A program made the position numbers and the translations under genes. The notes below the pieces were generated by a model that searched no databases, was not told the DNA's origin, and saw only the letters and a program-made list of their open reading frames with translations. From Sinorhizobium chiapasense (GTDB lineage Bacteria; Pseudomonadota; Alphaproteobacteria; Rhizobiales; Rhizobiaceae), in assembly GCF_036488675.1 (NCBI RefSeq), contig NZ_CP133150.1, positions 124,001 to 188,000 on the forward strand: 64,000 bases of DNA. Direction: 5' to 3'. Positions 27,030 to 46,429 of the stretch are shown here, in pieces (position 1 is the first letter of the stretch; every line of letters begins with the position of its first letter).

Positions 27030-27278
27030 GCTGTCCATATTGAGTCCCGCCCGCGCCGTCCACGTGGGGCAAAAGCCAATTTTCGACTAAAGGAATTTGG
27101 CGAATTAACATGCCGGTGATTTTTCGCCTGAAATCATCACGGCGAGAAAGATGGTTCTTGCTCTTAAGGACATGCGCACGTTGTTGATCGCGGACATGCG
27201 CGGCAAACCGCCCTCATCTCTGCTTTCCCTATCCAGCGTTTGGGGCGTAGTTTCTTCGGGCCAAACATGGAGATCGAG

Positions 27279-28304
27279 ATGAGAACGGATAGGCTTGCCG
27301 GACTCGTGAGACGAGCTCTTTTGGTCGGCGCTCTGCAGATTGGCTTAATCGGCTCCGCTCTCGCCGACACGACGATCCTGAACGTGTCCTTTGATTCGAC
27401 GCGTAAGCTCTACAGGGAATTCAATGCCGCCTTCGCCGAGAAGTGGGAGGCGGAGACGGGCGAGACGGTGACGATCGATATGTCACACGGCGGTTCCGGT
27501 AAGCAAGCGCGGTTGGTGATCGACGGCCTCGAAGCCGATGTGGTGACGCTGGCGCTCGAAGCCGATATCGACGCCGTTGCTAAGGCGACCGGCAAGATCC
27601 CGGCCGACTGGAAGAAGCGGCTCGAAAACAACAGCGCCCCTTATACCTCGACGATCGTCTTTCTGGTCCGCAAGGGCAATCCGAAAGCCATCAAGGATTG
27701 GGGTGACCTGACGAAGGAAGGCATCCAGGTCATCACGCCGAATCCGAAGACCTCGGGCGGCGCCCGCTGGAACTTCCTCGCGGCTTGGGCCTGGGCACGT
27801 GCTGCCAACAACGGCGACGAGGCCAAGGCGCAGGAATATGTGGCGCAACTGTTCAAGCGCGTTCTCGTTCTCGACACCGGCGCGTGGGGAGCGATGACCA
27901 CCTTCGTCCAGCGCGGTTTTGGCGACGTGCTGCTCGCCTGGGAGAATGAAGCCTATCTCGCGCTCGAGGAACTCGGCCCAGACAAATTCGAGATCGTCAC
28001 GCCGTCGATTTCGATCAAGGCCGAACCGCCGGTGGCGCTCATCGATGGCAATGTCGATAGAAAGGGCACCCGAAAGGTGGCGGAAGCCTACCTAAACTAT
28101 CTCTACACCGATATCGGGCAGAAGATCGTCGCCAAACATTACTACCGACCCTACAAGCCAGAACTTGCCAATCCCGATGACATTGCCCGCTTCGCCGATC
28201 TCAAGCTGGTCACGATTGACGAATTCGGCGGTTGGAAGGAAGCTCAGGCGAAATTCTTCGGCACTGGCGGGATCTTCGACCAGATCTACAAGCCGGGTCG
28301 ATAG
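27279..28304 (+). CDS. Sulfate ABC transporter binding protein, copy 1
   Basis: 341 aa with a signal peptide ending GSALA. Sbp/CysP family: [74 protein letters not shown]. It binds sulfate or thiosulfate in the periplasm. ATG 27279 has GGAG six bases upstream. It is a close paralogue of the protein at 29622. CysA follows after 82 bases with no CysT or CysW gene between. Confidence 0.92.
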
Positions 28305-29602: not shown

Positions 29603-29621
29603 CAAATAAATGGAGGTTCGA

Positions 29622-30647
29622 ATGCTTTCGAATAAACTTGCCGGATTACTGAAACTTTCGCTCGTGCTAGGGAGCCTGCAGCTTGGTGCTGCTGCTCTCG
29701 CTCAGGCAGACACCACACTTCTGAACGTGTCCTATGATCCGACGCGGGAACTCTACAAGGACTTCAACGCCGCCTTCGCGGAAAAATGGAAGGCCGATAC
29801 GGGCGAAACCGTCACGATCCAGACCTCTCACGGCGGCTCTGGCAAGCAGGCCCGCTCGGTGATCGACGGCCTCGAGGCCGATGTGGTGACGCTGGCACTC
29901 GAAGCCGATATCGACGCGATTGCACAGGCGACCGGCAAGATCCCGACCGACTGGAAGACCCGCCTCGAAAACAACAGCGCTCCCTACACGTCGACGATCA
30001 TCTTCCTGGTCCGCAAGGGCAACCCCAAGGGCATCAAGGACTGGGGTGACCTGACCAAGGAAGGCATCCAGGTGATCACGCCGAACCCCAAGACTTCGGG
30101 CGGTGCACGCTGGAACTTCCTTGCCGCCTGGGCCTGGGCGCGCGCTGCCAACGGCGGCGACGATGCCAAGGCGCAGGAATATGTGACGCAACTCTTCAAG
30201 CACGTTCCGGTCCTCGATACCGGTGCGCGCGGCGCAACCACCACCTTCGTGCAGCGTGGCCTCGGTGACGTGCTGCTGGCCTGGGAAAATGAAGCCTATC
30301 TCTCGCTTGAAGAACTCGGCCCCGATAATTTCGAGATCGTCACGCCGTCGATTTCGATCAAGGCCGAGCCACCCGTGGCGCTCGTCGACGGCAATGTCGA
30401 CAGCAAGGGCACGCGCAAAGTCGCGGAAGCCTACCTCAACTATCTCTACAGCGATGGCGGCCAGAAGCTCGCCGCCAAGCACTATTATCGGCCGTTCAAG
30501 CCGGAGCTTGCCGACCCCGCTGACATCAAGCGCTTTGCCGAGGTGAAGCTGGTCACTATCGACGAATTCGGCGGTTGGAAGGAAGCTCAGCCGAAATTCT
30601 TCGCCGATGGCGGAGTTTTCGACCAGATCTACAAGCCGGGACAATAA
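29622..30647 (+). CDS. Sulfate ABC transporter binding protein, copy 2
   Basis: 341 aa. ATG 29622 has GGAGG five bases upstream. Signal peptide ending ALAQA, then the same Sbp landmarks ([38 protein letters not shown]). Protein and DNA are highly similar to 27279-28304 across the whole mature part, so this is a tandem duplication bracketing cysA. It has its own promoter region, which may allow separate expression. Confidence 0.92.
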   Translation: MLSNKLAGLLKLSLVLGSLQLGAAALAQADTTLLNVSYDPTRELYKDFNAAFAEKWKADTGETVTIQTSHGGSGKQARSVIDGLEADVVTLALEADIDAIAQATGKIPTDWKTRLENNSAPYTSTIIFLVRKGNPKGIKDWGDLTKEGIQVITPNPKTSGGARWNFLAAWAWARAANGGDDAKAQEYVTQLFKHVPVLDTGARGATTTFVQRGLGDVLLAWENEAYLSLEELGPDNFEIVTPSISIKAEPPVALVDGNVDSKGTRKVAEAYLNYLYSDGGQKLAAKHYYRPFKPELADPADIKRFAEVKLVTIDEFGGWKEAQPKFFADGGVFDQIYKPGQ

Positions 30648-36660: not shown

Positions 36661-36942
36661 ATGATCGCTCTCAGCCTCAAGATCAATGCAGCACGCAGCA
36701 GCCTTGCCGTCACATGGGACGATGGGCTTGTTTCTGACATCCCGGCGCCGGTGCTGCGCGCCCATAGCCGCGCCGCAAGCCAGGTGCGCGCCGAGATCGA
36801 AGGTCGTGCCGCTTCATTCGAGGGGGTGACGCTTACGGGCGCTGAAGCAATCGGGGCCTATGCCGTGCGCCTGGTTTTCTCCGATGGCCACGACCGCGGC
36901 ATCTACCCTTGGGAGTATCTGCGCTCGCTCGCCAATTCATGA
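36661..36942 (+). CDS. DUF971 (GBBH-like N-terminal) domain protein
   Basis: 93 aa. It is a stand-alone DUF971 domain: LAVTWDDGLVSDIPAPVLR at the start and AVRLVFSDGHDRGIYPWEYL at the end. In gamma-butyrobetaine hydroxylases this domain binds zinc; stand-alone forms are often linked to Fe-S biology. AGGAAA precedes ATG 36661. It is 15 bases upstream of the AprA-like flavoprotein and likely starts that operon. Confidence 0.88.
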   Translation: MIALSLKINAARSSLAVTWDDGLVSDIPAPVLRAHSRAASQVRAEIEGRAASFEGVTLTGAEAIGAYAVRLVFSDGHDRGIYPWEYLRSLANS

Positions 36943-36957
36943 GTTCGAGGAAAGAGA

Positions 36958-38694
36958 ATGGACAATTTTGTCGAAGGTCTCACGGAAGTTACCTGCGACG
37001 TGCTGGTGATCGGCGGAGGAACCGCCGGGCCGATGGCCGCGCTCAAGGCCAAGCAGAAGAACCCGGCGTTGAATGTGGTGCTATTGGAGAAGGCCAATGT
37101 AAAGCGGTCGGGTGCGATCTCGATGGGCATGGATGGCCTGAACAATGCCGTCGTGCCGGGTTACGCGACGCCGGAGCAGTACACCAAGGAAATCACGATC
37201 GCCAATGACGGCATCGTCGATCAGGCGCCGGTCTTCAAATATGCCTCGCGCTGCTACGATATCATTGAGGAGCTCGATCGCTTCGGCATCCGCTTCCAGA
37301 AAAATGCCAATGGCGATTTCGATCTCAAGAAGGTCCATCATCTCGGCACCTATGTACTGCCGATGCCGAATGGCGATACGGTCAAGAAGGCGCTCTATCG
37401 CCAGCTGAAGCGGGAGCGCATCCTTATTTCTAACCGCTTCATGGCGACGCGTCTCTTGACGGCGAGCGACGGGCGTATCGCCGGCGCCGTTGCCGTCAAC
37501 ACGCGCAGCGCCGAATTCCTCGTGCTGCGGGCAAAGACCGTGATCCTCTGCATGGGGGCTGCAGGCCGGCTCGGCCTGCCGCATTCCGGCTATCTGTTCG
37601 GCACCTATGAGAACCCGACCAATTCCGGCGACGGCTATGCCATGGCCTATCATGCGGGTGCCGCACTCGCCAATCTTGAGTGCTACCAGATCAACCCGCT
37701 GATCAAGGACTATAACGGCCCGGCCTGCGCCTATGTCGCGGGACCCTTCGGCGCCTATACGGCCAATAGCGAAGGCAAACGCTTCATCAAAAGCGACTAT
37801 TGGTCCGGGCAGATGATGCAGGAGTTCTACAATGAACTCCAGTCAGGCAAGGGACCGGTCTTCCTCAAGCTCAATCACCTCCATCCCGACACGGTCGGCG
37901 AGATCGAGGAGATCCTGCACAAGGTCGAGCGTCCGTCGCGCGGGCGGTTTCATGGGGCGCGTGGAACAGATTACCGCGAGAAGATGATCGAGATGCACAT
38001 TTCCGAGATCGGCTTCTGTTCGGGCCACAGCGCATCGGGCGTCTTCGTCGACGAGTTTGCCCGCACCACGGTGCCCGGCCTCTATGCCGCCGGCGACATG
38101 GCGAGCGTGCCGCATAATTACATGCTCGGTGCCTTCACCAATGGCGCCGTCGCCGGTGAGCATGCCGCCGAAGTCGCGCAGGAGATTGATTTGCCGGACT
38201 ATGATCCCGACTTCGTGCAGCTGGAGCGTGAGCGCGTGCTGGCGCCGACGCGGCGCGGGGATGGCATTCCGCCGAACCAGCTGGAATACAAGGCGCGTCG
38301 ACTGGTCAACGACTATCTGCAGCCGCCCAAGGTGACGGCGAAGATGCAGATCGGTCAGGCGCGCCTCGCCGAAGTGCGGGAGGATTTCGAAACGGCGCTG
38401 GTGGTGCGCAATGCGCATGAATTGATGCGGGCGCTGGAGGTCTCCTCGATCCTCGACTGCGCCGATATGGCAGCACACGCCTCGCTTTACCGCACCGAGA
38501 GCCGATGGGGCCTCTATCACAACCGCGTCGACTTTCCGGAAAAGGATGACGACAATTGGTTCTGCCACACGCTTCTTAGCAAGGTCGAAGGCCGCATGAC
38601 GGCGGAGAAGCGGGCGATCCAACCTTATCTCGTTCCAATCGAGGACGAAGAGCGGTCAGGATACGACCGTCTCCGCGTCTCCAATCAAGCCTGA
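36958..38694 (+). CDS. AprA-like FAD-dependent reductase/dehydrogenase
   Basis: 578 aa. N-terminal FAD motif VLVIGGGTAGPMAALKAK (residues ~15-32), AprA/FrdA-type GAISMGMDGLNNAV, ENPTNSGDGYAMAYHAGAAL, a GHSASGVFVDEFARTTVPG core and GLYAAGDMASVPHNYMLGAF that contacts FAD. The C-terminal helical domain ends KRAIQPYLVP. Architecture is that of the fumarate reductase/APS reductase alpha family. The gene directly downstream encodes an AprB-like ferredoxin, as in aprBA loci. The setting is a sulfur-starvation region without sat or other dissimilatory genes, so the substrate is probably not APS. Function unknown. Confidence 0.85.
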   Translation: MDNFVEGLTEVTCDVLVIGGGTAGPMAALKAKQKNPALNVVLLEKANVKRSGAISMGMDGLNNAVVPGYATPEQYTKEITIANDGIVDQAPVFKYASRCYDIIEELDRFGIRFQKNANGDFDLKKVHHLGTYVLPMPNGDTVKKALYRQLKRERILISNRFMATRLLTASDGRIAGAVAVNTRSAEFLVLRAKTVILCMGAAGRLGLPHSGYLFGTYENPTNSGDGYAMAYHAGAALANLECYQINPLIKDYNGPACAYVAGPFGAYTANSEGKRFIKSDYWSGQMMQEFYNELQSGKGPVFLKLNHLHPDTVGEIEEILHKVERPSRGRFHGARGTDYREKMIEMHISEIGFCSGHSASGVFVDEFARTTVPGLYAAGDMASVPHNYMLGAFTNGAVAGEHAAEVAQEIDLPDYDPDFVQLERERVLAPTRRGDGIPPNQLEYKARRLVNDYLQPPKVTAKMQIGQARLAEVREDFETALVVRNAHELMRALEVSSILDCADMAAHASLYRTESRWGLYHNRVDFPEKDDDNWFCHTLLSKVEGRMTAEKRAIQPYLVPIEDEERSGYDRLRVSNQA

Positions 38695-38707
38695 CCAAGG
38701 AAAAGCC

Positions 38708-38941
38708 ATGCCGCTTGCTCTTTCCCCCACAACCGTTCCCGTCGTCGTCGACGACGCCAAATGCATCGCCGACAAGGGCTGCACCGTCTGCGTCGACGTC
38801 TGCCCGCTCGATGTGCTCCGGATCAGCGATCTGACGGGCAAGGCCTACATGAAGTTCGACGAGTGCTGGTACTGCATGCCCTGTGAAACAGACTGCCCGA
38901 CCGGCGCCGTTACCGTCAACATTCCCTACCTGTTGCGCTGA
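38708..38941 (+). CDS. AprB-like 2[4Fe-4S] ferredoxin
   Basis: 77 aa with two cluster motifs: Cys19, Cys25, Cys28, Cys32-Pro (with a widened first spacing) and Cys53, Cys56, Cys59, Cys63-Pro. The segment DECWYCMPCETDCPTGAV closely resembles the second motif of AprB. The C-terminal tail of AprB is absent. It should pass electrons to the flavoprotein encoded 13 bases upstream. AAGGAAA precedes the ATG. Confidence 0.9.
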   Translation: MPLALSPTTVPVVVDDAKCIADKGCTVCVDVCPLDVLRISDLTGKAYMKFDECWYCMPCETDCPTGAVTVNIPYLLR

Positions 38942-38942
38942 T

Positions 38943-39899
38943 ATGAGTGCTTTCGAACCCTTTGAAGATTTTGGCGATGCCGAGGAGATAGCGGCCCGCC
39001 TTGCCGATGCCGACGCTGCCGTGCGCCGCCTTGCCGTCATCGATCTTGCCGAGGCTGCCAGCGCTGACGGGCTCCCGCATCTTCTTGCCGCGGTCTCAGA
39101 CAGCGATGAAAGCGTGCGCCTTCAGGTGGCCATCGCGCTTGCGGAGTTCGGCACGGTGGAAGCTGCCGCCGCGCTCACGACGCTTGTCACGGATTTGGAT
39201 GCGACTGTGGCGCGGGCCGCGGCGGATGGGCTTGCGGAGCTGAAGGATGCTGGCGCGGCGCCTGTCATTCTGCCGCTTGCGTTCCATGACAACGCTTTCG
39301 TGCGCGCAGCCGGTTTTCGCGGGCTGAAGGGTTTTCGTTCGCAGGCAGCACTGGGCCCCGCGCTTGCGGCCATGAAGGATGAGAGCGCCGAGGTGCGAGC
39401 CGAAGCGCTTGGTGTCATTGCCTATCTCAAGCGAGAAGAAACCCTGCCGTCGCTCATCGCGGCCACGCGCGATGCCGAGGCGACCGTTCGCGCCGTGGCG
39501 GTCAACGCCCTGTCGTTCAGCAATCAGGCTGCGGTCGCCTTTGCCGTCACGGCAGCGCTGCACGATGAGAACTGGCAGGTGAGGGCGGCGGCTGCAGAAT
39601 CGCTTGGCCGGATCGGCCACGCCTCGGCCATCGACGGCCTCGCGGCCGGGCTTTCGGACGATTATTGGCAGGTCCGGCAGAATTGTCTGAACGCACTCGG
39701 CAGGCTGAAGGCTCGGACCGTCGTGTCGGAAATTGCAGCGCTGCTATCGAGCGACCTGCCTTCGCTGCGCAAGGAAGCGGCAGCAACCCTCGGCGAGATC
39801 GCGGATCCGTCCTCGCACGCCGCCCTGATGGCGCACGTCTCGGATGCGGATCCCGATGTGCGCAAGACTGTGCGTTGGGCGCTCACCCGTTTGGTCTAG
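38943..39899 (+). CDS. HEAT-repeat protein
   Basis: 318 aa made of about nine HEAT/PBS-lyase-type repeats of ~30 residues, such as VRLQVAIALAEFGTVEAAAA, VRAAAAESLGRIGHASAIDG and LRKEAAATLGEIADPSSHAA. No catalytic domain or signal peptide is seen. It starts one base after the ferredoxin stop, so it is part of the same operon. HEAT proteins are scaffolds or act in cofactor attachment; here it may bind the flavoprotein-ferredoxin complex. Confidence 0.9.
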   Translation: MSAFEPFEDFGDAEEIAARLADADAAVRRLAVIDLAEAASADGLPHLLAAVSDSDESVRLQVAIALAEFGTVEAAAALTTLVTDLDATVARAAADGLAELKDAGAAPVILPLAFHDNAFVRAAGFRGLKGFRSQAALGPALAAMKDESAEVRAEALGVIAYLKREETLPSLIAATRDAEATVRAVAVNALSFSNQAAVAFAVTAALHDENWQVRAAAAESLGRIGHASAIDGLAAGLSDDYWQVRQNCLNALGRLKARTVVSEIAALLSSDLPSLRKEAAATLGEIADPSSHAALMAHVSDADPDVRKTVRWALTRLV

Positions 39900-39920
39900 G
39901 CATTTTTTGAAAGCGCGGCG

Positions 39921-40745
39921 TCAGGCGCCGCGCTTGGAGACCATCTCCAGCAGCGCATGCGGCCGCTCAATGCGGATATGCCGCGGTGTTACCGTCACCA
40001 CCCCATCTGTCTGGAACCGCTTCATCATCATCGTCACCCATTGCCGGGTCGAGCCGACCATGGCTGCGATCTGATCGTGGGTCACCTTGGCGTTGATGAT
40101 GATCGCCCGCCCGTCTCGCACGCCATGGCGATTGCCGAGATTGATGAGGAACTGCGCCAGGCGTTCGATGACCGAGCGGGTGCCGAGCATCTGCGCCATG
40201 GCCGAATAACACCGCCCCTTCGCGGCAAGTCCCTGCAGAAGACAGAGGGCGAAGCTTGGCAGCTCGACCACCAGCGTCTTCAGTGCCGGCGCCGGCAGGA
40301 AGAGGATGCGACAGGTGCTGAGCGCCTCGCCCGACCAGATATGGGTGCCGCCGCCGGTCATTTCCGGGCCGCCGATGAAATGGCCCTTCGTCCAATAGGC
40401 AAGCGTGATCTCGCGCCCGGACGGCGCGGTGTAGAACACGCGAACGTCACCGGCCTCGATGATGAAGATGCCGCCGTGCTTGTCCCCTTGCGTAAAAATT
40501 GCCTCGCCCGTCTCAAAAGAAAGGTGGCGGCCGTGCGCCCTCAGCCGTTCCCATTCCTGTGGCTTGAGGGCATCGAGAAAGTGTGCCCCTTCGTCCAGTC
40601 TTTCAATGCTTTCGCTGAGGAAAAGCGCCTGGTCGCCCGGAAGGGTGGCCGGTGCGGGCAAGTCGATAGAAGTCGTATGTTTTGGCCGTGCTACCCTTTC
40701 GGCGGTTACGCGGACGTCAAGGCTCACATCGGTCTCCTTCCACAT
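39921..40745 (-). CDS. Crp/Fnr-family transcriptional regulator
   Basis: 274 aa from ATG 40745 (GAAGG eight bases upstream); the longer TTG-started frame is less likely. It has a cyclic-nucleotide-binding-type beta-roll (GEAIFTQGDKHGGIFIIEAGDVRVF, REITLAYWTKGHFIGGPEM) and a C-terminal HTH (THDQIAAMVGSTRQWVTMMMK). The N-terminal Cys set of FNR is absent, so oxygen sensing by Fe-S is unlikely. It converges on the HEAT operon and is divergent from the importer at 41073, with a CTAC/GTAG palindrome between. Confidence 0.9.
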   Translation of the reverse strand: MWKETDVSLDVRVTAERVARPKHTTSIDLPAPATLPGDQALFLSESIERLDEGAHFLDALKPQEWERLRAHGRHLSFETGEAIFTQGDKHGGIFIIEAGDVRVFYTAPSGREITLAYWTKGHFIGGPEMTGGGTHIWSGEALSTCRILFLPAPALKTLVVELPSFALCLLQGLAAKGRCYSAMAQMLGTRSVIERLAQFLINLGNRHGVRDGRAIIINAKVTHDQIAAMVGSTRQWVTMMMKRFQTDGVVTVTPRHIRIERPHALLEMVSKRGA

Positions 40746-41072
40746 CGTGATCGCCTTCAAAGTAGAGATAATCTACCGATTAAGAAGAAAAATAATTGCG
40801 CCTTTGGACCGGAACATGAAACATTGTCGCCTCTTCAGATTTCGGAGCGGATCGCTTCAAGTAATTGGTTTTACGAGAGGAACGAACTCGGTGCGTGTCG
40901 CCGTGACTTGCCGGGTGCGCGTGTCCCGGCACTTCTCGCCTGCTGGCGCCTGCAAGTAATTGCTTATTCCTTCCGGGCCGCCGCCTCATAAATTTCGCGA
41001 CAGCAGCTCGACGACCGACGCTGGGTCAAGAGGCTTCAGTCGCCCAATTGCGGCAAACCAAGAGGTATGATC
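40746..41072. promoter_or_regulatory. Divergent region with GTAGA-GATAA-TCTAC palindrome
   Basis: 327 bases. GTAGAGATAATCTAC at 40762-40776 is a perfect five-base-arm inverted repeat; its reverse complement reads GGTAGATTATCTCTAC, matching the recurrent element. It is 17 bases upstream of the crp-like start. No gene in the remainder. Confidence 0.5.
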
Positions 41073-42485
41073 ATGACTTTGCGCGTCCATCTGGCTGCGA
41101 TCGCGCTCGCGGCCGCCGGCTTCTCTTCAACAGCCGACGCTGAAACCATCCGCGTTGCAATCGGCACGCAGGATACGACGATCAACACCGCCACGGGCGG
41201 CTTGTTGATCCGTGAACTCAAGCTTCTGGAAAAATACCTGCCGCATGACGGCAAGTATCAGGGCGTCGATTATGACATTCAGTGGAAGAATTTCACCAGC
41301 GGCGCGCCGATCACCAACGAGCAGATCGCCGGTAAACTGGATTTCGGCGTGATGGCCGACTTCCCCGGCTCCTTCAACGGCCTCGCCCATATCAACGCCG
41401 GCCGCAGAAGCCATTTCATCACGCCGCTCTCCGGCAGTGTCGGCGGTAGCGGCAACGGTATCGTCGTGCCCGTAGATTCTGAAATTCAGTCGCTCGGGGA
41501 ACTCAAGGGCAAGACGATCTCCGTGCCCTTCGCATCCACCTCGCATGGCATGCTCCTGCGGGCCGTCAAGGCGGAAGGTTGGGACGCCGAACGCGACGTC
41601 AAGATCATCACCCAGGCGCCGGAGGTCGCGGGCGCGGCTCTCAAGGCAAACCGGATCGAGGCGCATGCCGACTTCGTTCCATTTGCCGAACTGTTCCCAT
41701 GGCGCGGCATCGCGCGGAAAATCTACGATGGGTCGCAGGCCAAGACGCCGACCTTCCATGGCGCGCTCGTCGATGCGGACTATGCGAAAAAATATCCCGA
41801 GGTCGTCGTCGCCTACCTTCGGGCCGCGATCGAGGCCGATCAGCTGATCGCCAAGGAATCGGAAAAGTACAGCGAACTGATCGCCGAGGTGAGCGGCGTC
41901 GAGGCGGAGGTCGACTACCTCTTTCACGGACCGCTTGGTCTTCAGACCCGGGACCTCACCTGGAAGCCCGAGTATCGCCAGGCAGTCGCCACCGCGATCG
42001 AAACACTCAAGTCCCTGAAAAAGGCAGACCGCTCGCTTGATGTCGACAGCTTCATCGACGAGCGCTTCATCCGCGCCGCCTTCAAGGCCTCGGGCCTCGA
42101 TTATGAGGCCGCACTCAAGAACTATGCCCAGCTTCCGCTGGACGCCAAGGACGCGGCGACCGGCGAGACCATCGCCGACGGCAAGCGCGTTGCGCAGCTT
42201 TGGGTCGCGGGCGAGCCGCTGGTTCGCAGCTACGCTTCCCCTGAACTTGCGCTGAGTGTCTTCAAAGGAGTCGAGGCGGAAGGCAAGACCGTCCGTGTGT
42301 TTTACGCGCAGGATCGTGAAAGCGGCATCAAACTTCTCGGCGCGCAGGCCTGGTTTGTGCGCACCGACGGCGGCGCGGTCGACGCCTTCCTGCTGAAGGA
42401 CAGGGCCGAAGCCTGGGCAAAGGCGCATGGCGGCAACGTGCTCGACTTCGACGCCGTCAAGGCATCGATCGTGGCCAGCAACTGA
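41073..42485 (+). CDS. TauA/SsuA-like binding protein with C-terminal NosL-like domain
   Basis: 470 aa. Signal peptide ends TADAE. Residues ~25-340 form an NrtA/TauA-type binding protein (VAIGTQDTTINTATGGLLIR, NEQIAGKLDFGVMADFPGSF, APEVAGAALKANRIEAHADF). The last ~100 residues (from DGKRVAQLWVAGEPLVRSYA) resemble NosL: KTVRVFYAQDRESG, LLGAQAWFVRTDGGAVDAF, AEAWAKAHGGNVLDFDAV. NosL is a copper-binding lipoprotein of nitrous oxide reductase assembly, so the fusion suggests metal or sulfur-ligand binding. It heads a three-gene importer. ATG 41073 has AGAGG seven bases upstream. Confidence 0.85.
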   Translation: MTLRVHLAAIALAAAGFSSTADAETIRVAIGTQDTTINTATGGLLIRELKLLEKYLPHDGKYQGVDYDIQWKNFTSGAPITNEQIAGKLDFGVMADFPGSFNGLAHINAGRRSHFITPLSGSVGGSGNGIVVPVDSEIQSLGELKGKTISVPFASTSHGMLLRAVKAEGWDAERDVKIITQAPEVAGAALKANRIEAHADFVPFAELFPWRGIARKIYDGSQAKTPTFHGALVDADYAKKYPEVVVAYLRAAIEADQLIAKESEKYSELIAEVSGVEAEVDYLFHGPLGLQTRDLTWKPEYRQAVATAIETLKSLKKADRSLDVDSFIDERFIRAAFKASGLDYEAALKNYAQLPLDAKDAATGETIADGKRVAQLWVAGEPLVRSYASPELALSVFKGVEAEGKTVRVFYAQDRESGIKLLGAQAWFVRTDGGAVDAFLLKDRAEAWAKAHGGNVLDFDAVKASIVASN

Positions 42486-42492
42486 GGCTGGC

Positions 42493-43275
42493 ATGAGCAC
42501 CCGTTCGTTCGGGCGCTGGATGCGCCGCGCAGGGTCCCTCGCCATCTGCCTCATCGCCTGGCAGATGGCATCGAGCTTCAGGCTCGATCTCGGCGTCGTC
42601 ACCTTCCAGAACGTGCCGGGACCGGTCAACGTCGCCGCGGCGGCACTGGAGTTCCTGCGTTCGCCGCGGCTTTACGATCACGTCTCCAGCAGCATTCGAC
42701 GAGTGTTGGCCGGCTATGGCATCGCGGCCGTCGCAGGCGTCGTGCTCGGTCTTGTCATCGGCCGGTCCCGACGGCTTGGAGATATTCTTGAGACGCCGCT
42801 CGAGCTCTTGCGTCCCGTCCCGGCCGTTTCCTGGATCCCGCTCGCGGTGCTGATGTTTCCGTCCTCCGAAGCATCGATGATCTTTATCACGTTCACCGGC
42901 GCCCTGTTCCCGATCCTTATCAACACCGTTCACGGGGTGGAAAACGTCGATCCCCGGCTCGTGGCTTCCGCCCGCAGCCTGGGCAGCACGCGAACGGCGA
43001 TGCTTTTTGAGGTCATTGTCCCGGGTGCGGCGCCGAACATCGTCACCGGCCTCGTCATTGGCATGGGCACCGCCTGGTTCTGCCTGGTGACAGCCGAGAT
43101 GATCTCAGGTCAGTTCGGGATCGGCTACTATACCTGGGAGTCCTATACCTTGCAGAACTACCCCGAAATCATCGTCGGCATGATCCTGATCGGCCTGCTC
43201 GGCATGGGCAGCAGCGCACTGCTCAAGGCGGCGGGCGCAGCACTTCTGCCCTGGCATGTGAAGGAAGGTAGATGA
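42493..43275 (+). CDS. TauC/SsuC-like ABC permease
   Basis: 260 aa, six membrane segments, EAA loop ARSLGSTRTAMLFEVIVPGAAP, then GQFGIGYYTWESYTLQNYPE. It is seven bases downstream of the NosL-fused binding protein and overlaps the ATPase start. Inner-membrane half of the importer; ligand unknown. Confidence 0.9.
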   Translation: MSTRSFGRWMRRAGSLAICLIAWQMASSFRLDLGVVTFQNVPGPVNVAAAALEFLRSPRLYDHVSSSIRRVLAGYGIAAVAGVVLGLVIGRSRRLGDILETPLELLRPVPAVSWIPLAVLMFPSSEASMIFITFTGALFPILINTVHGVENVDPRLVASARSLGSTRTAMLFEVIVPGAAPNIVTGLVIGMGTAWFCLVTAEMISGQFGIGYYTWESYTLQNYPEIIVGMILIGLLGMGSSALLKAAGAALLPWHVKEGR

Positions 43276-44102
43276 TGAATGGCCATGACCGAAAACTTCA
43301 CGCACTGACCGGCCTCATCGAGGCGAGCAACGTTTCCATTCGCCTCGGCCACGGCAGCAACGCCTTCGAGGCGGTAAGCGACGTCAGCTTCGCCGTCTTG
43401 CCCGGCGAGTTCGTCTGCCTGCTCGGGCCCTCCGGTTGCGGCAAGTCGACTCTGCTTGGCGCGCTTGCGGGCCATATCGCTCCCGCCGCCGGACGGCTCA
43501 CTGTCGACGGGGAGCTCGTGAGGGGGCCCGGACCCGAGCGGGGGATCGTCTTCCAGCACCACACGCTCTTTCCCTGGAAGAGCGCGCGCAACAATGTCGC
43601 CTTCGGTCTCAAGATGCGCGGCGTTGGCCGCGACGAGCGGCGGCGAGAGGCCGAGCGCATGCTTGACCTCGTCGGCCTTTCCGGATTCTTCGACCGCTAT
43701 CCGCGACAGCTTTCCGGCGGCATGCAGCAACGGGTGGAGATTGCCCGTGTGCTTGTCAACCAGCCCCGCCTGCTTCTGATGGACGAGCCGTTTGGCGCGT
43801 TGGACGCGCTGACGCGGCTGCGCATGCAGGAACTGTTGCTCGATATCTGGGAACAGTTCCGCAAGACAATCGTCTTTGTGACGCACGATATCGACGAGGC
43901 GCTTCTCCTGGCCGACCGCATCATCGTCATGCAGGCTGAGCCGGGCAGAATCCAGGAGGAGATAGTGGTGCCTTTTGACAAGCCGCGCGAAACGGGGATC
44001 ATGGCTTCCGCAGACTTCGTGCGTCTCAAGCAGCATTGCCTTCAGCTGCTACACAGCGACCGGCGCGCCGACACGCTTGCCCGCCTGTCGCCCTTGGGGT
44101 GA
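43272..44102 (+). CDS. TauB/SsuB-like ABC ATPase
   Basis: 276 aa. Walker A GPSGCGKST, FQHHTLFPWKSARNNVAFG, signature LSGGMQQRVEIARVL, Walker [14 protein letters not shown], switch VTHDIDEA. Completes the importer encoded from 41073. Its closeness to the AprAB-like operon suggests the imported compound is that complex's substrate or precursor. Confidence 0.92.
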   Translation: MMNGHDRKLHALTGLIEASNVSIRLGHGSNAFEAVSDVSFAVLPGEFVCLLGPSGCGKSTLLGALAGHIAPAAGRLTVDGELVRGPGPERGIVFQHHTLFPWKSARNNVAFGLKMRGVGRDERRREAERMLDLVGLSGFFDRYPRQLSGGMQQRVEIARVLVNQPRLLLMDEPFGALDALTRLRMQELLLDIWEQFRKTIVFVTHDIDEALLLADRIIVMQAEPGRIQEEIVVPFDKPRETGIMASADFVRLKQHCLQLLHSDRRADTLARLSPLG

Positions 44103-45575: not shown

Positions 45576-45842
45576 TTATGAGGGCGTCGGGGCGACGAGG
45601 CGATTTAGATCAACGCCCTTGAGCCGTATGCCTCTTTTATGCCGGCCGAACCATTGATCGGCGATCGGCAGCTTCATTGGAAGAATATGATCCCCTGAAA
45701 TCAAACAGACGGCCGGCAAATTTGCTGACCGGAGGCTGGTGCGCTGTCGGTCCTGCTGGCGTTCGACGTTGAACTGCGGGCGAGACCGCATGAGCTTGCC
45801 AATGAGCGTCGGCGCTTCGGGCAAGCAGTCGAGGTGGCTCAC
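45576..45842 (-). pseudogene. nodB start fused to unrelated sequence
   Basis: A GTG overlaps the nodA stop (CTGTGAGCCACCTCGAC), exactly as nodB starts after nodA, and the first residues VSHLDC resemble the NodB start (M-K-H-L-D-Y). After about ten codons the similarity ends. None of the deacetylase motifs (TFDDGP, HTMTHP) is present in the remaining 78 residues, which match nothing I know. nodB therefore appears replaced or deleted at its 5' end. Confidence 0.5.
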
Positions 45843-46429
45843 AGTTCTGGTCCGTTCCGGTCAATTATCCTGGCGGCGGGCCAGTCGGAGAACGGCCTTC
45901 CGACAGGCAGGACGATGACAAGTGGATCCTCGACGCGCGTGGGCGGCAGGTCGATACGCGCGTGCGGCAGCGTGGAGCGTACGCTGATCCCCGACATAAC
46001 AGTCACCAGACCGTGTCGGCCGAACCTCTCAATGTGCTTCCGTAGCGCGGGCCGGACGGTACCGAATGCGAATGGAACCTGAAACTCCTGCAGTGTGGGA
46101 AGCATGAAATGGATCGAGTGAGCAATCCCGAGTCCCTCAAGATCCGGACGCACCCCATAGAGGCCGAGTTCAGCCACGAGCAGGTCGACTCCGTCAACCT
46201 TGATGAAACGGCGCAGTAAGCCCATGTGGGCCGCTACACCGCTGGAATCGTAGGCGATTGCACGAAGCTCAGGTCTTGCTCCGGCCCAGCTCTGACTGCC
46301 TTCGAAGGGCTTCGCATTGAAGGCCCCGGTCGGTCCATAGGTTCTTCGAAAGAACTCAGTGAGCTCGACATGGTCGGAGAGTTGCAACTCGTTTTCCCAA
46401 CACAATTTCCACTGCACGTTAGAGCGCAT
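45839..46429 (-). CDS. nodA: Nodulation N-acyltransferase NodA
   Basis: 196 aa, the full family length. [20 protein letters not shown] at the start, [76 protein letters not shown] and the ending [10 protein letters not shown] are characteristic. NodA transfers a fatty acid to the de-N-acetylated chitin oligomer, fixing part of Nod-factor host specificity. It should act after NodB, but nodB is not intact next to it. No nod box was found in correct orientation directly upstream. Confidence 0.95.

Follow-up and report, generated by a model that had tools for sequence, protein, structure and literature searches.

A widely conserved flavoprotein, ferredoxin and importer module in Sinorhizobium chiapasense, a candidate reductase system for an imported anion

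A set of eight genes at 36661-44102 in a 64,000 nucleotide stretch of Sinorhizobium chiapasense DNA (contig NZ_CP133150.1, positions 124,001 to 188,000; the whole stretch is referred to here as the window) had been predicted from its sequence to encode an AprA/FrdA-like flavoprotein with a ferredoxin, a HEAT-repeat protein, a DUF971 protein, a Crp/Fnr regulator, and a dedicated importer. All eight are present as open frames. The enzyme and importer genes form a module that is real, widely conserved, and, within the literature searched, undescribed so far. It may encode a flavoprotein reductase that receives its electrons from ferredoxin and acts on a single imported anion (most likely an organosulfonate or other organic sulfur anion), built on the scaffold of the adenosine 5'-phosphosulfate (APS) and 3'-phosphoadenosine 5'-phosphosulfate (PAPS) reductases, a reading that is put forward tentatively.

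Conservation and distribution of the module

Loci were collected around 90 flavoprotein genes, comprising 10 chosen plasmid records and the best 80 of 589 confirmed genome-contig matches; locus counts made later refer to 93 loci, with the window proteins as tblastn queries. Using the window proteins as queries, the ferredoxin and the HEAT protein are each found at 90/90 flavoprotein loci, the ATPase at 84/90, the permease at 82/90, and DUF971 at 75/90. The clustering of flavoprotein, ferredoxin, and HEAT genes across genomes, which had been proposed as a check on the original prediction, is therefore seen at every one of these loci and is far above chance. Some of the permease and ATPase matches belong to another transporter, one of the sulfonate type, as at the Mesorhizobium locus L020. 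The gene for the substrate-binding protein (SBP) is present at 82/90 loci by query match and at 80/90 by clustering of open reading frames, by which it is absent from L020, L025, L026, L034, L068, L074, L075, L085, L105, and L108, some of these loci being short or cut. At L020 there is no SBP match within 21.7 kb of the locus. At L020:13233-14873, on Mesorhizobium pMLa, an IS110 transposase stands between the HEAT gene and a short Crp gene.

The Crp regulator that was predicted as a member of the set is present in the window, but it is no fixed part of the module, being matched by tblastn at 55/90 loci, with a GntR cluster at 22/90. The regulator varies among loci between Crp, GntR/UTRA, and, in Pseudanabaena, a LysR protein. 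At L118:15320-17335 there is a LysR-type regulator of approximately 670 amino acids (aa), in which a second ligand domain resembling NMT1 is weakly matched (20.8 bits, the cut-off being 24.7), and at L027:7388-9424 there is another of approximately 670 aa, identified on the basis of annotation. A ligand domain of this kind on the Pseudanabaena LysR protein would fit substrate sensing.

Bradyrhizobium-like sequences account for 30/90 loci, and the same pattern is seen in Burkholderiales, Methylocystis, Methylobacterium, Rhodobacterales, and cyanobacteria. Many soil bacteria, and some of the cyanobacteria, carry relatives of the cluster. Within the family to which the window belongs, the flavoprotein is found in 3/151 genomes, the window genome included, so that it is an accessory trait and probably a mobile one. 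Homologues of the flavoprotein number at least 6,658 proteins at E 0.001 from 8,000 candidates scored, a figure that possibly includes more distant flavoproteins. The 120 matches listed have identities of 78% or more; two of the named ones are labelled oxidoreductase, and the other named ones fumarate reductase/succinate dehydrogenase.

No published function, characterised orthologue, or pathway with this gene set was found in the literature searched, in keeping with the original prediction that no such pathway had been described. Passages searched in papers on dimethyl sulfide, Gordonia, and desulfurization and in a Rhodococcus genome note do not mention the cluster.

The importer and its association with the enzyme

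In a sample of 397 genomes of the order, the flavoprotein is present in 38 and the SBP in 36, with both in 34 where 3.4 would be expected (Fisher p 2.5e-42), leaving four genomes with the flavoprotein only and two with the SBP only. The thresholds for these genome-wide searches were E 1e-100 for the flavoprotein and E 1e-40 for the SBP. In a phylum sample of 324 genomes, the identical 15 genomes carry the flavoprotein and the SBP, 9/15 of them also being in the order sample. One genome (G265) has kept both genes with 2.9 Mb of the same contig between them. The importer had been predicted to be dedicated to the enzyme, and this genome-wide co-occurrence supports the view that it belongs to it.

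The nearest solved structures to the SBP are TauA (6ssy, E 7e-12) and SsuA (2x26, E 7e-11). Against the curated models, the importer scores 100.5 for SsuA_fam (cut-off 163.5), 115 for TauC (cut-off 342), and, for the ATPase against the TauB model (PRK11248), 255.5 bits (cut-off 357). All seven NCBIfam matches of the SBP and all 14 of the permease are below cut-off. SBP, permease, and ATPase thus all fall short of the curated cut-offs for a TauABC or SsuABC importer.

The C-terminal extension of the SBP resembles NosL, a copper protein. The NosL domain is above cut-off in the relatives at L027:3833-5341 and L055:6060-7490, with 14.9 bits in the window copy, below the cut-off of 24, and a NosL-like extension is present in 5/14 SBP relatives at E 0.01. 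The NosL-like part of the window SBP, at approximately 42129-42476, contains no Met or Cys.

Family placement and active site of the flavoprotein

The flavoprotein is a member of NCBIfam NF006131 (PRK08275, "fumarate reductase/succinate dehydrogenase"), with 1065.8 bits against a cut-off of 587. Its best solved relatives are MtPAPSR (8a8o, E 5e-58) and then AprA (2fja, E 6e-36), and in a tree the family is placed with AprA and PAPSR against Asf, SdhA, and NadB, with support of 92/89 on a grouping that is not starred and has long branches. The AprA model gives 152.3 bits against a cut-off of 641.75 and the aprB model 33.2 against 135.65. On its sequence, the enzyme is a variant of the APS reductase architecture with a different active site.

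Residues were counted in the 73 family members in a joint alignment, the 17/90 proteins outside 540-610 aa being left out, and L065, with its in-frame stop, was left out of the structure alignment. The APS-contact residues of AprA are, Gln145 apart, those that we take to line the site, their positions having been checked in the 2fja sequence. Just 2/13 of these are kept, Asn74 and His398, both in 73/73 members. AprA Arg265 is replaced by Leu, Gly274 by Cys, and Trp234 by Tyr in 73/73 members; Gln145 is replaced by His in 71/73, and Arg317 by Glu in 73/73, the last being next to gaps. Both Gln145 of AprA and the PAPSR loop are named as contact residues in the available text of PMC10322725. That loop, Lys120-Arg121-Ser122 of MtPAPSR, has become Val126, His127, and His128 in the window protein, and Arg237 has become Leu248. 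In place of the lost residues the family has long invariant motifs, VHHxGxYVLPMP, QINPLIKDYNGP, DYWSGQMM, and SEIGxCSGHSASG, two of which align with substrate-contact stretches of AprA, and these motifs have the appearance of a catalytic pocket.

The catalytic residues of Escherichia coli SdhA, presumably His242, Thr254, Arg286, and His354, correspond to Asn246, Ala258, Gln285, and His347 in the window protein, so that His354 alone is matched, with Arg286 beside a gap. This set is largely lost, which makes the automatic name of fumarate reductase misleading. With the APS, PAPS, and SdhA residues mostly lost, it is unlikely that APS, PAPS, or fumarate is the substrate. A substrate other than APS had been predicted, and the changes in the pocket relative to AprA point the same way.

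The ferredoxin, the HEAT protein, and electron supply

At 93/93 loci the best tblastn match to the ferredoxin retains the eight Cys and Trp54. The protein aligns with AprB (3gyx_B), and the two share the Trp that adjoins the fifth Cys. Three cyanobacterial ferredoxins and one actinobacterial (L026, L027, L118, and L122) have a shorter first Cys spacing. The HEAT protein matches the HEAT part of the flavoprotein-HEAT model NF010374, below its cut-off. In Nonomuraea (L122:11824-14802) the flavoprotein and the HEAT protein are a single open frame, 993 codons long between its two stops, adjoining the ferredoxin, SBP, permease, and ATPase genes, which fits the idea behind that fused model.

DUF971 has been linked to Mrp/NBP35-type proteins, and an Mrp/NBP35 gene follows the HEAT gene in three cyanobacterial plasmid loci. 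Together these suggest iron-sulfur cluster loading, in which DUF971 is a possible assembly helper.

A cluster of proteins like ferredoxin-NADP reductase (FNR) is present at 42/90 loci, and at 16/60 outside the 30 Bradyrhizobium-like loci, with a representative that falls short of the PRK10926 cut-off (132 against 390 bits). An FdxA cluster is present at 16/90 loci, and the Methylobacterium radiotolerans record annotates both FNR and FdxA genes in the cluster. These neighbours would suggest a path from NADPH through FNR and ferredoxin to flavin adenine dinucleotide (FAD) and therefore a reductase, and of the two activities predicted originally, reductase or oxidase, it is the reductase that is favoured. 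A giant protein of approximately 1150-1190 aa is encoded near the cluster at L025:10574-14035, L084:16736-20326, L093:16788-20327, and also L103, in Acidithiobacillus, Thiobacillus, Hydrogenophilales, and a Burkholderiales metagenome-assembled genome. The two that were tested have a Pyr_redox_2 domain, and this protein is possibly another electron donor.

Organization of the cluster and its surroundings

The eight genes are listed in Table 1. From DUF971 through the flavoprotein and ferredoxin to the HEAT gene they are separated by 15, 13, and 1 bases. The Crp gene is convergent to the HEAT gene and there is a gap of 306 bases before the transporter genes, of which the SBP and permease genes are 7 bases apart and the permease and ATPase genes overlap by 4 bases.

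Table 1. The eight genes of the cluster, with positions in the window
Gene product	Position	Strand	Basis
DUF971 protein (GBBH-like_N), 93 aa	36661..36942	+	PF06155 E 4.9e-20
AprA/FrdA-type FAD flavoprotein, 578 aa, proposed catalytic subunit	36958..38694	+	FAD_binding_2 + Succ_DH_flav_C; NF006131
AprB-like ferredoxin, 77 aa, eight Cys, two 4Fe-4S sites	38708..38941	+	Fer4_7
HEAT-repeat protein, 318 aa, proposed flavoprotein partner	38943..39899	+	HEAT_2 E 2e-45
Crp/Fnr-type regulator, likely local	39921..40760	-	cNMP_binding + HTH_Crp_2
SBP, 472 aa, SsuA/TauA-like part and C-terminal NosL-like extension	41067..42485	+	TauA/SsuA structure matches
ABC permease (NtrB/SsuC/TauC-like)	42493..43275	+	BPD_transp_1 E 3e-22
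ABC ATPase (TauB-like)	43272..44102	+	ABC_tran E 3e-33

The surroundings had been described as a sulfur-scavenging region and this is indeed the case, as upstream in the window there are genes for an NtaA/DmoA-type monooxygenase, SfnB, SsuD, two sulfate-binding proteins, and SsuA, each above its NCBIfam cut-off. Also upstream are an Rrf2 regulator and a TauD, the latter above the Pfam cut-off and below that for taurine dioxygenase. The genes for the two sulfate-binding proteins, at 27240-28304 and 29610-30647, are similar and close together. Downstream of the cluster by 1.7 kb is nodA, encoding the NodA N-acyltransferase (45839-46429, minus strand; above both NCBIfam cut-offs), which places the cluster in a symbiosis-associated region. 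Genes with PAPS_reduct and sulfite/nitrite-reductase domains are present elsewhere in the same genome, and the lack of sat, apr, and dsr genes in the window, for which no aimed search was made, does not therefore mean that there is no sulfate reduction.

Evidence for and against a sulfur substrate

The original prediction was of an imported organosulfur compound or sulfur oxyanion. The importer and a substrate other than APS have held; the sulfur itself is likely, and on this the neighbouring genes are divided. Near the cluster there are SsuD-like and MetX genes in Nonomuraea, SsuA and SsuD genes in genome G462, metX and a gene for O-acetylhomoserine aminocarboxypropyltransferase/cysteine synthase in Nostoc, TauE/SafE in Leptolyngbya, Aquabacterium, and Pseudanabaena, and sulfur genes in C. 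pinatubonensis. Among loci with the SBP only, L125 and L129 have SsuA-like genes near it, and L129 also has cysK. TauE is found in 6/93 loci (1.89 Mb), where approximately 2 would be expected from the density in the window genome, 8 in 6.87 Mb.

Several observations weigh against a sulfur substrate. The TauE profile was partly built from the same loci in which TauE was counted. A matched test was negative, with sulfur-panel genes beyond the core at 3/25 flavoprotein loci and in 2/40 controls (p 0.36). The cases in this test were 25 loci from carriers with workable contigs, made up of 20 regions, of which one was trimmed to 11.7 kb, and L124, L127, L130, L131, and L132, of which L130 had been chosen for having its SBP apart from the flavoprotein and not for sulfur genes; the SBP-only loci L125, L126, L128, and L129 were left out. 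The controls were 40 stretches at a distance of approximately 100 kb or greater, taken from contigs of some of the case carriers. In an unmatched count, only 16/93 loci have SsuD, NtaA/DmoA-type, SfnB, TauD, Sbp, or TauE, SsuA matches being excluded since an SsuA query can match the core SBP. Nitrate, bicarbonate, and thiamine precursors are also among the ligands of the SBP superfamily. After the transporter, varying sets of SCO1/SenC, PCuAC, cytochrome c, thioredoxin-like, and extra membrane-protein clusters are seen, mostly at alphaproteobacterial loci, the SCO1/PCuAC-type group being L060, L061, L064-L067, L069, L070, and L092. The SCO1, PCuAC, and cytochrome c neighbours would suggest copper or periplasmic redox functions, which are not plainly related to sulfur. 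Together with the NosL-like extension of the SBP, the SCO1/PCuAC neighbours are unexplained.

Proposed mechanism and alternatives

In the proposed mechanism, the importer would bring the substrate into the cell and electrons would pass from NADPH, by way of FNR and, where present, FdxA, to the two-cluster ferredoxin. From there they would cross the conserved Trp of the ferredoxin to FAD, which would reduce the substrate. The HEAT protein may stay on the flavoprotein as a scaffold or maturation partner and DUF971, or Mrp/NBP35 in the cyanobacteria, may help to load the iron-sulfur clusters. The sulfur, probably as sulfite, would then enter ordinary assimilation. It is conceivable, if rather improbable, that this is a new class of reductase of the flavin-N5 type that frees sulfite from imported organosulfonates without O2 and has the HEAT subunit permanently bound. 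If so, it would be a reductive counterpart to SsuD and TauD across Proteobacteria, Cyanobacteria, and Actinomycetota.

A reductase of the same architecture could instead act upon a substrate free of sulfur, such as a metal-bound or nitrogenous compound. The negative sulfur-neighbour test, the breadth of the SBP superfamily, the NosL-like extension, and the SCO1, PCuAC, and cytochrome c neighbours at some loci would all agree with this, which is nevertheless unlikely, given that the closest solved SBPs bind taurine or sulfonate, that the closest solved enzymes act on sulfur, and that the window copy and several distant copies sit among sulfur genes. It is doubtful, and more so, that the flavoprotein and ferredoxin are an electron-supply module for a separate oxygenase that cleaves the carbon-sulfur bond, as has been proposed for AsfAB. 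The asfRABC genes are described as such a reductase/ferredoxin support system in the available text of PMC4267179, and SsuD or NtaA/DmoA-type genes are near the L122, L130, and L023 copies. There is, however, no constant oxygenase neighbour, with a gene like the window SsuD at 1/93 loci and an NtaA/DmoA-like gene at 5/93, and the long invariant motifs look more like a catalytic pocket. The pair is also only 25% identical to the AsfA-like pair, and does not co-occur with the AsfA-like family in excess.

An assimilatory APS or PAPS reductase would account for MtPAPSR and AprA being the best solved relatives and for the retention of Asn74 and His398, but the changes at Arg265, Gly274, Gln145, and, beside gaps, Arg317, the loss of the MtPAPSR loop, and the AprA and aprB scores make it very improbable, and this candidate was rejected on the pocket residues and those cut-offs. 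The genome already has PAPS_reduct-domain genes, and a nucleotide that the cell makes in its cytosol would have no need of a dedicated importer. Least credible of all is that the protein truly is a fumarate reductase or succinate dehydrogenase, as the fold and the NF006131 label would have it. This was rejected on the SdhA residues, one of the four catalytic positions being matched, and on the TIGR01812 score (166 bits against 567.3); there is also no membrane-anchor gene among the eight genes of the cluster.

The ferredoxin-fed reduction of an imported organic sulfur anion that is preferred here would, if it is reductive desulfonation, give the soil sulfur cycle a further step that needs no oxygen. 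The flavoprotein family is large, and the name that it bears in the databases, "fumarate reductase/succinate dehydrogenase", is unsupported by its active site. That a conserved module with its own importer is present in nodulating rhizobia, methylotrophs, cyanobacteria, and others implies an uncharacterised nutrient route.

Comparison with known systems

The closest published cluster by function is asfRABC, from Pseudomonas putida S-313 and Cupriavidus metallidurans CH34 (Rmet_4334/5). In the portion of PMC4267179 available it is a reductase/ferredoxin pair with a binding protein and transporter that supports oxygenation of the arylsulfonate C-S bond, and AsfAB, a reductase and ferredoxin accompanied by transporter components of the sulfonate type, is active when sulfate is limiting (available text of PMC4267179 and PMC2864759). 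On the CH34 megaplasmid (NC_007974) the best ferredoxin match adjoins a flavoprotein at approximately 928-930 kb, which would be Rmet_4334/5, and thus AsfAB, although the record bears no locus tags. This presumed AsfA is 25.1% identical to the window flavoprotein. In the 25 kb around the CH34 pair there is no match to the HEAT, DUF971, or SBP proteins (tblastn E 1e-3). The genome of the window has a second flavoprotein-ferredoxin pair (C5:1262489-1264102, L013), the flavoprotein of which is 56.7% identical to the presumed CH34 AsfA and has relatives in 12/397 order genomes at E 1e-80. The AsfA-like and window-type families are distributed independently, with both in 2/397 genomes where 1.1 would be expected, and the tree parts them with moderate support. 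Orthology of the window pair with AsfAB is rejected on this distribution and on the identity of 25.1%, against 56.7% for the other gene.

MtPAPSR of Methanothermococcus thermolithotrophicus, an FAD/ferredoxin PAPS reductase that works in assimilation (available text of PMC10322725), is similar in its flavoprotein and small eight-Cys ferredoxin. It is 28.5% identical to the window flavoprotein, which has lost Arg237 and the PAPS loop, and the cluster adds an importer and a HEAT protein. AprAB of Archaeoglobus fulgidus (2fja) is likewise a flavoprotein-ferredoxin pair, with 31% identity and the equivalents of Asn74 and His398 retained, whereas 11/13 positions on the presumed list of APS contacts have changed in the cluster flavoprotein, and AprB (1jnr_B) has 150 aa against 77 aa in the cluster ferredoxin. 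The TauABC and SsuABC importers are of the same transporter type, and TauA and SsuA are the closest to the cluster SBP among solved structures, the cluster SBP differing in its length of 472 aa and its additional C-terminal domain.

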